From an uncultured Prevotellaceae bacterium (GTDB lineage: Bacteria; Bacteroidota; Bacteroidia; Bacteroidales; Bacteroidaceae), in assembly GCA_900321425.1 (NCBI GenBank), contig ONWA01000008.1, positions 1 through 44,921 on the forward strand: DNA of 44,921 nucleotides. Direction: 5' to 3'. Below are positions 29,366 to 44,921 of this stretch, one piece after another (positions within the stretch are counted from its first letter, which is position 1; every line of letters begins with the position of its first letter). The notes beneath the pieces were generated by a model. That model ran no database searches and was not told the origin of the DNA. It saw only the letters and a list, made by a program, of their open reading frames with translations. A program made the position numbers and the translations under genes.

Positions 29366-29426
29366 TCTTAAGGATTTCAATTGAAAACCTTAAGATTTTC
29401 TTTTGAAAAGTAGGGACTTTTCAAAA
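29366..29426 (+). terminator. Two more hairpins between gyrB and the thiamine riboswitch
   Basis: First: TCTTAAGG (29366-29373) / CCTTAAGA (29388-29395), whose inner part is again palindromic (TTTCAA/TTGAAA, one central mismatch pair), followed by TTTTCTTTT. Second: TTTTGAAAAG (29401-29410) / CTTTTCAAAA (29417-29426). The first looks like the true gyrB terminator. Apart from these hairpins, the promoter and the riboswitch, the 348-base gap holds nothing I recognise. Confidence 0.55.
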
Positions 29427-43880: not shown

Positions 43881-43932
43881 TATTCATGTTTTAGTTATTC
43901 ATCAATCGTTGCGTCTTTATCAATATCTGGCG

Positions 43933-43964
43933 CAAAGTAACTAAAAATTTTAGTTCGATACAAC
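43933..43964 (-). promoter_or_regulatory. Promoter for blaI
   Basis: On the minus strand: GTTG (43964-43961), 20 bases, TTACTTTG (43940-43933), one mismatch from TAnnTTTG. It is covered by the palindromes at 43939-43978. Confidence 0.6.
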
Positions 43965-43995
43965 TAAAACCTTTAGTTTTTAAACTATATTAGTT
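43939..43995. promoter_or_regulatory. Triple palindromic operator, probably for BlaI
   Basis: Site 1, 43939-43955: AACTAAAA-A-TTTTAGTT, perfect. Site 2, 43962-43978: AACTAAA-ACC-TTTAGTT, perfect arms. Site 3, 43983-43995: AACTA-TAT-TAGTT. Centres are 23 and 19 bases apart, about two helical turns. Sites 1 and 2 cover the promoter. Confidence 0.78.
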
Positions 43996-44086
43996 AGTTT
44001 GCCTGATAATTAACGAATTTTTAGAATGTACCTTGTGCAATTGCGCTATATCCGCATTGCTATTATAAGACATGACAAAATCGAAT

Positions 44087-44125
44087 GCCCCGCACCAGAG
44101 CGATGTTTTCGCAATGATGCGGGGC
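44087..44125. other. Nested hairpin in the gene-poor end
   Basis: GCCCCGCA (44087-44094) pairs with TGCGGGGC (44118-44125); inside is GCGA...TCGC. No long T run on either side. It lies beyond the 3' end of the minus-strand frame at 44203, so it could stop transcripts reading leftward, or be part of an RNA. Confidence 0.45.
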
Positions 44126-44166
44126 GAGGGTTAAGATTGTTGATTGATGACCGCTTCGTACAGTTA

Positions 44167-44204
44167 AATTCTTCAATTCTTCAATTCTTCAATTCTTCAA
44201 TTCT
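44167..44204. repeat. Octanucleotide tandem repeat
   Basis: AATTCTTC repeated four times without error, then AATTCT. It abuts the stop codon of the minus-strand frame ending at 44203. Units of 8 bases are outside the triplet register. Confidence 0.95.
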
Positions 44205-44454
44205 ATGAGATGACTCCGCTGTCGTCGCCATCGCCGCCTCCCGTTCCAGGATTCTCCGGCGCCTCCGGTGTAGTCGGCGTTTCACCGCTATTAGGATCTA
44301 CATTGCCGTTACCCTGCGTGATGTCGTCTTCCTCTTCCTCGATGACATTGCCGTTCTTGTCCACCTTCTGCCATGAAACAGAGTCCTCGTTGCGATGCCA
44401 AAATCCGCAAGAAGGACCACTACTGCTCGCAATGCGGTGAGAAGTTATGAACAT
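44203..44454 (-). CDS. Hypothetical protein, perhaps a truncated C-terminal fragment
   Basis: An 83-residue frame starting MFITSHRIASSS. Its second half, WQKVDKNGNVIEEEEDD and then Pro/Gly/Asp-rich low complexity ending DGDDSGVIS, looks like a real protein tail; the first 30 residues do not look like a domain. The frame extends upstream to 44544 but there runs into the palindromic array. I suspect the remains of a longer protein whose front part was replaced or lost. A small zinc-ribbon frame on the other strand overlaps it, and only one can be real there. Function unknown. Confidence 0.3.
   Translation of the reverse strand: MFITSHRIASSSGPSCGFWHRNEDSVSWQKVDKNGNVIEEEEDDITQGNGNVDPNSGETPTTPEAPENPGTGGGDGDDSGVIS
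44373..44450 (+). pseudogene. Short zinc-ribbon-like frame with a lost cysteine
   Basis: A 25-codon frame, ATG to TGA, giving MKQSPRCDAKIRKKD then HYCSQCGEKL. The usual zinc-ribbon pattern would be CPxC...CxxC; here the first Cys position is Ser (AGT, one base from TGT), while C7, C18 and C21 remain. It may be the decayed end of a zinc-ribbon protein or a tiny real one. No promoter or strong ribosome site seen. Confidence 0.3.
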
Positions 44455-44494
44455 AGAATCGTTTCTAACACCCTGTGCTTGTTCCTGGATATTG

Positions 44495-44692
44495 GTACAG
44501 TTTACGCTATTTGTTGGTACAGCAAACGGCACTTCTCGGTACAAGATAGGCTAATCTTCTATTGCTGGCTCCAGCCAGCAATACTGCTGCCTCCAGCCAG
44601 CGATATTGCTGCCTGGAGGCAGCAATAAGAAAACAGGCACCTTGGTACCACACATCAGGCACTTTGCGCCCTAAATACAGCGTATTGTGTAC
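44495..44692. repeat. Dyad-symmetric array of nine 22-bp units
   Basis: In 22-base steps, the left three units (44495, 44517, 44539) begin GTACA. On the right, the units ending at 44648 and 44692 end in GTAC. Both mirrored pairs have the same centre, 44593.5, which is also the centre of the fifth unit. The outermost units share GTACA, three bases, TACGCT when one is reverse-complemented (15 of 22 bases equal). The central three units are the palindromes listed separately. The next step to the right (44693-44714) holds AGGGCA-G-TGCCCT. No match to a known element that I can name. Confidence 0.6.
44561..44626. repeat. Core of the array: three 22-bp palindromes in tandem
   Basis: Unit A 44561-44582: ATTGCTGGCT, CC, AGCCAGCAAT, perfect arms. 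Unit B 44583-44604: imperfect version (ACTGCTGCCT, CC, AGCCAGCGAT). Unit C 44605-44626: ATTGCTGCCT, GG, AGGCAGCAAT, perfect arms. A and reverse-complemented C agree at 20 of 22 bases, and each differing G/C is matched by a change in its own partner arm. Confidence 0.92.
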
Positions 44693-44736
44693 CAAAAAGG
44701 GCAGTGCCCTCCCTGTGTTATGAAAAAGTTACACAT

Positions 44737-44921
44737 CGTTCCAGACCCCATGTGTTCCCAGTACGATGTTAACGATGTTGACAAGCAATTCAGTTTAACC
44801 TGGTGAAATCTGTCAAGTGAAATGGTTCTTCTGCAATTTAGTTGAAGAGTACGTGTTCCATTACATCCGCAAGCACCCATTTTATAGTACTTTCACGATG
44901 TTCTTTATATAACAAATTGTA
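44737..44921. other. Non-coding end of the window, nothing recognised
   Basis: No open frame with coding character on either strand, no promoter of the TAnnTTTG type, no clear hairpin. It may continue into a feature beyond the window edge. Confidence 0.5.

Follow-up and report, generated by a model that had tools for sequence, protein, structure and literature searches.

A mirror-image array of 22-bp units in a Prevotellaceae genome is a dispersed non-coding repeat with conserved spacing and polarity

The array and its surroundings

Near the right end of the window analysed here (the whole stretch of 44,921 nucleotides from an uncultured Prevotellaceae bacterium) lies a region that carries only short, overlapping ORFs and no gene. 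No tRNA was found in it, all seven Rfam 15 matches over 43900-44921 fall under the gathering score of their own family, and nothing in plasmid and phage collections matches the array that occupies it. The array proper covers 44494-44693 and is built from nine 22-bp units: three headed by GGTAC, three palindromic units that form a core, and three inverted ones (Table 1). The initial annotation had extended the feature over 44495-44736; the array part of that extent stands, and 44694-44736 belong to a non-repetitive tail. It had also placed GTAC at the outer edges of the steps, which holds on both sides save in the second right-hand unit, and its view that no coding gene explains the array agrees with the ORFs seen.

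Table 1. Features of the array region, in window coordinates
Feature	Coordinates	Strand	Description	Basis
Left array	44494..44559	+	Three 22-bp units, GGTAC start at 44494, 44516 and 44538	Sequence, exact 22-bp spacing
Core	44560..44627	.	Three palindromic 22-bp units, TATTGCTGSCTSSAGSCAGCAATA type	Tandem repeat finder, inverted repeats, alignment
Core units	44560-44583, 44582-44605, 44604-44627			
Right array	44628..44693	-	Three inverted 22-bp units ending GTACC	Sequence, inverted repeats
Right-array units	44628-44649, 44650-44671 (GTAC lost), 44672-44693			
Non-repetitive right tail	44694..44760	+	Common to window and C50 copy	BLAST extents, alignment
28-bp dispersed sequence, inverted ends (ACACA...TGTGT)	44730..44757	+	Also in C8 (twice) and C35; diverged in C50	

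The symmetry is strong. No other ungapped dyad in the 44.9-kb window is as strong as the one centred on 44593.5, which pairs 58 of 100 positions; all centres together average 25.1 pairs per 100 (sd 4.5). First-order Markov shuffling of 44380-44820, repeated 300 times, yields best dyads with a mean of 38.8 pairs and a maximum of 46. Lag 22 gives the top autocorrelation in 44494-44697 (0.54, against a mean of 0.25) and is also the best lag in each outer arm taken alone. The shuffle test, a check proposed in the initial annotation, bears out the centre that it had described, the autocorrelation bears out its 22-base step, and its figure of 15 of 22 reverse-complementary bases for the outermost steps (44495-44516 and 44671-44692) is reproduced. 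Folding both strands of 44480-44720, another of its proposed checks, gives z-scores of -4.3 (+) and -7.2 (-).

Other small features share the window. A perfect 8-bp tandem repeat, AATTCTTC, is present in 4.8 copies near the array at 44167-44204. Just left of the array, a 25-aa ORF (44373-44450) is possibly the tail of a degraded gene; it ends in HYCSQCGEKL, which we take to be a zinc-ribbon-like motif. A second 22-bp repeat, at 29367-29409, has two copies of the unit CTTAAGAATTTCAATTGAAAAC, which contains an internal palindrome.

Copies in the source genome and arrays in Prevotella sp. RGIG4794

The source genome (G000), assembled to 2.18 Mb in 68 contigs and 74.7% complete, contains two further copies, on contigs C50 (87% over 188 bp) and C18 (83% over 215 bp). 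BLAST aligns window 44517-44760 with C50 at 83% and window 44490-44704 with C18 at 83%, homology with C18 stopping at 44704; C50 and C18 align with each other over 206 bp at 91%. The three copies adjoin different genes, and the left flanks of the window and C18 copies are unrelated, that of C50 being cut off by the contig end. The C18 copy has an extra left unit and one step of 21 bp, with a fragment of a transposase (Pfam DDE_Tnp_1_3) further to its right. The left unit next to the contig end of C50 starts GTTCAG; the other left unit and the three right units seen keep GGTAC. An artefact of contig ends was considered and discarded, since the C18 copy is internal to a 57-kb contig and one of the related elements described below, C75, is internal to a contig of 103 kb. 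The mirror-image 22-bp array is a real feature and a dispersed non-coding repeat. That it might be a unique chromosomal site, such as an origin, a partition site or a dif-like site, is ruled out because there are three copies in one incomplete genome.

The 28-bp sequence with inverted ends (WACACATCGTTCCAGACCCCWTGTGTT type) that lies in the tail recurs at C8:3885, C8:5181 and C35:3807; a search with its C8/C35 form found no plasmid match and nothing identical in viral contigs. Homology between the window and C50 ends at 44760, just past this sequence, which resembles a recombination or insertion boundary.

A scan of genome contigs from 84,980 species for the core palindrome returns three stretches, two of them in Prevotella sp. 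RGIG4794 (G200), from roe deer reticulum. The third, on SLGC01000110, was dropped, having no surrounding array. Four matches to the core palindrome in viral contigs are put down to chance: their four contexts are identical, and the L282 match lies inside a 1159-aa ORF. In RGIG4794, GGTAC-N17-GGTAC has 27 matches on 11 contigs, against 10 for the reversed control. At five loci (C41, C48, C75, C147 and C161; the sequences of C161 and C48 identify them as L077 and L078, respectively) the plus-strand pairs lie on the left and the minus-strand pairs on the right, and the other six matches are singles on six other contigs. GGTACC being its own reverse complement, one minus-strand pair at C161 overlaps the left array too. 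Four of these five inverted arrays share the 22-bp lattice of the window array exactly; three have a palindromic core, of two or three units, and two have none. The search of other genomes for the same layout, suggested at the outset, has therefore found several such loci, and the array belongs to a repeat family, one of the possibilities then raised.

Conserved and drifting features

What is kept from copy to copy? Counted over the window and the four loci detected through the core or BLAST, not through GGTAC, 29 of 31 outer units retain that word (window 5/6, C18 6/7, C48 6/6, C75 6/6, C161 6/6); the count leaves out C50, and C41 and C147 carry GGTAC by ascertainment. The remaining 17 positions of the unit, compared over five loci, agree at means from 5.6/17 (left against right, non-mirrored) to 8.3/17 (within left arms). 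From the innermost GGTAC start to the innermost GTACC end, the distance is 22k+2 in seven of eight loci (112 in four, 90 in two and 24 in one) and is off by one in C41 (25). GGTAC, its 22-base spacing and its orientation are conserved between copies, and most other sequence drifts.

The strong dyad and the stable fold would suit a selected cruciform, or a single long hairpin of DNA or RNA, and the initial annotation had taken paired changes in the core as a sign of selection for base pairing. Such changes exist between units 1 and 3 of the window locus, but they are absent as a trend across the 16 core palindromes (12 of them distinct) from six loci. No measure of covariation there rises above shuffling: 88.6% of cells are paired against 90.2% in shuffles, two pairs show double changes against 1.8, and the core pair singled out in the initial annotation (columns 9-16) is unpaired in 9 of the 12 distinct units. 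Mirrored left and right arms agree at 6.13/17 (n = 15), others at 5.63/17 (n = 30; one-sided p = 0.26). Because there is neither excess covariation nor an excess in mirrored arms, selection for a cruciform or long hairpin is unsupported, and we consider it very improbable.

Could the element instead act as RNA, its hairpins being transcribed at gene 3' ends as a terminator or mRNA stabiliser, as proposed for REP and BIME sequences? Folds at eight loci are more stable than shuffles on both strands (16 folds, z -0.9 to -13.6), a stability that arises because the units are inverted and the core is palindromic. Position offers some encouragement. C48 and C75 lie between convergent genes (neighbourhood gene calls follow a simple ORF rule), and the C18 and C50 copies sit 137 and 112 bp beyond a stop codon, respectively. 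In another Prevotella-type genome, G026, arrays of the 22-bp class occupy 18 of 32 convergent gaps of at least 100 bp, 15 of 55 tandem gaps and 1 of 28 divergent ones, a bias that favours convergent gaps and avoids divergent ones (Fisher p 2.0e-4 and 2.5e-4). However, three of the five RGIG4794 elements (C41, C147 and C161) lie between divergent genes, and the absence of covariation and of mirrored-arm excess counts against selected RNA hairpins as well. An RNA role as the primary one is accordingly judged improbable. The C161 element lies about 560 bp upstream of a 16S rRNA gene, which is on its right.

22-bp arrays across the genus

Of 200 genomes of the genus, 35 contain the triple GGTAC-N17-GGTAC-N17-GGTAC (14 of 86 among those of good quality) and, among the matches listed, the interiors of these arrays differ between genomes. 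In other genomes of the order it is found in 4 of 148, against 34 of 199 in the genus with G000 excluded (p = 8e-6). Within the genus GGTAC is not clearly special: the reversed word gives such arrays in 25 of 200 genomes (p = 0.21 against the 35), and GGTAC is therefore no requirement for a 22-bp array. A mirror pattern with a short gap is present in 12 of 398 genomes, against 7 for the reversed control, with no match in G000; these counts are weak evidence, as the matches listed look mostly like self-palindromic units.

Tandem arrays between genes in the sampled congeners have a period of 22 more often than any other. This period accounts for 28 of 52 such arrays in 340 kb of G026 and for 20 of 50 in 520 kb from unselected places in 17 genomes of the genus. 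In two genomes from a different genus of the family the count is 2 of 4, and in other families it is 3 of 18 (313 kb, 20 genomes), where periods 21-23 together make up 7 of 18. Between the genus and the other families the difference has a Fisher p of 0.09, so that period 22 as a trait of the genus is suggestive only. In a 400-kb sample of G000 itself, just 3 of 25 arrays have period 22, and period 8 is the commonest (6). The consensus units of G026 include 18 of 41 with a stem of at least 6, and their mean stem is 5.7 against 3.7 in base-shuffled units; 15 units from the wider genus sample show a small excess (3.5 against 3.1). G000 also has a separate 22-bp array at C37:123-320 (L042), with about eight partly palindromic units of the GGTACTAACCAATTAATCATTT type.

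The presence of arrays beside comparable genes varies. A fur-type gene (Pfam FUR) adjoins the C18 copy and has homologues in seven of eight genomes searched, none being in G200; of those seven, only G062 has a nearby 22-bp array, which is downstream and of a different unit. A bcp-type gene (Pfam AhpC-TSA) adjoins the C147 element, with homologues in nine of ten other genomes searched. On the one gene side compared, all nine lack a GGTAC array beside it, including G000, whose Bcp protein is 85% identical to that of RGIG4794. Upstream of its bcp-type gene, G006 carries a 22-bp array of another kind.

The main rival explanation starts from this abundance. It holds that 22-bp arrays are neutral minisatellites, created and turned over in intergenic DNA through slippage or hairpin-assisted copying, with a period set by the copying mechanism and no function. 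The many arrays of different units in G026, the frequency of period 22 in unselected places of the genus, the near parity of the reversed word and the lack of excess covariation in the core palindromes all agree with it. Against it, GGTAC and its spacing persist while the interior of the unit drifts, and the five RGIG4794 loci share a mirror layout of the same polarity, which slippage alone would not predict. A neutral origin of this kind seems to us unlikely, though it deserves to be taken seriously.

Comparison with known repeats

As a kind, the array is already known, an intergenic minisatellite or MITE-like repeat, here in a variant form; its function is unproven. It is a tandem array of period 22 between genes, like the other 22-bp intergenic minisatellites of the genus. 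Like a MITE it is short, non-coding and dispersed, with three copies beside different genes in G000. Constant terminal inverted repeats are missing, the outermost units differing between loci; no target-site duplication is visible by eye at the loci compared, and no linked transposase was found save the fragment near C18.

The BrickBuilt MITE of Porphyromonas gingivalis (Klein et al. 2015, PMC4596501) is a repeat that contains a 23-nt minisatellite between non-repetitive parts. That report also credits an earlier genome paper with noting 41-, 23- and 22-nt tandem repeats in P. gingivalis W83, and gives only weak tail matches to BrickBuilt outside P. gingivalis and P. gulae. By that account both elements belong to Bacteroidales and are intergenic and dispersed, with a minisatellite of about two helical turns, imperfect units, flanking non-repetitive parts and predicted long stem-loops. 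BrickBuilt differs in its 23-nt units and in a leader and tail with IS5-type terminal repeats, and a mirror layout is not described in the part available. Its terminal repeat, GAGACCTTTGCA, has five matches in the window at up to two mismatches, which is chance level, and none past 37528. With a period of 22 and no terminal repeat near the array, membership in BrickBuilt is unsupported.

In the Prevotella intermedia/nigrescens group, the 188-bp intergenic repeat PINSR (Naito et al. 2015, PMC4755523) is likewise dispersed, judged non-coding and lineage-specific. Compared by description, it differs from the array in having 177-184 copies and in being stated to have no terminal inverted repeats.

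REP sequences, as set out in PMC3733652, are short tagged palindromes of GTAG and CGTC families; they form inverted dimers as well as clusters and lie mainly outside genes. The array resembles them in its short conserved word at the 5' side, the variable sequence that follows it, its inverted arrangements and its species-specific units, which raises the idea that GTAC-tagged palindromes are moved by a tyrosine (Y1) transposase of the RAYT type. However, the tag is GTAC, not GTAG or CGTC, and it heads freely varying units. Nor is there an association with the enzyme: Y1_Tnp (PF01797) is present in 17 of the 35 GGTAC-array genomes against 97 of 200 overall, and was not found in G000, G026 or G123. 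Movement by such a transposase is highly doubtful.

Two further papers concern P. gingivalis repeats (PMC5771137) and structured RNAs of microbiomes (PMC8040213). Among the matches listed from the open-licence literature, no title or abstract treats intergenic arrays of period 22 or 22-bp mirror arrays in Prevotella.

A proposed model of phased sites

Conserved spacing and polarity suit phased protein sites, which the initial annotation had offered beside base pairing; its interpretation is partly supported. Phased sites of this sort, or a mobile repeat with multi-site ends, would fit the pattern better than selection for pairing. Our tentative reading, held at somewhat under even chances, is that the array is a MITE-like repeat, non-coding and dispersed between genes, that belongs to the 22-bp minisatellites common in the genus, its halves being phased sites for a putative protein. 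The loci follow one 22-bp lattice, with [GGTAC-N17] units on the left, no, two or three palindromic core units, and inverted [N17-GTACC] units on the right. Each GGTAC unit would be a site for a hypothetical DNA-binding protein, whose protomers would line up as neighbours at a distance of two helical turns, with the polarity reversed between the halves. The element may have spread as a non-autonomous unit, a mobility suggested by its copies and absences, and may afterwards have gained and lost whole 22-bp steps. Any effects on neighbouring genes, through RNA hairpins, promoter or terminator activity, would be secondary.

Such an arrangement could be likened to the multi-site ends of some transposons. 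The ends of Tn7 and Mu are multi-site and have 22-bp transposase sites. The array resembles them in having several 22-bp sites in opposite orientation at its two ends; it differs in that no cargo, transposase or constant terminus was found.

A broader proposal is that these are lineage-wide elements, fluid in sequence and fixed in lattice. A putative architectural or transpositional protein would read a short word, e.g. GGTAC, repeated exactly every two turns in arrays of mirrored polarity, and each species would evolve its own 22-mer while spacing and polarity are inherited. We give this little credence, given how close the reversed word comes to GGTAC in frequency across the genus. A protein that reads the lattice, if there is one, would count as a new factor in genome organisation or mobility; otherwise the arrays would offer an uncomplicated example of a mutational process whose period is two turns.

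Arrays of different units can also lie side by side. At G006 C87 (L009:1452-1631) and in G062 (L218:2036-2220), a GGTAC-type array is directly followed by a 22-bp array of a different family, the GCTTRYAAGCAAAMGACC type, and composite arrays are therefore common to different species.
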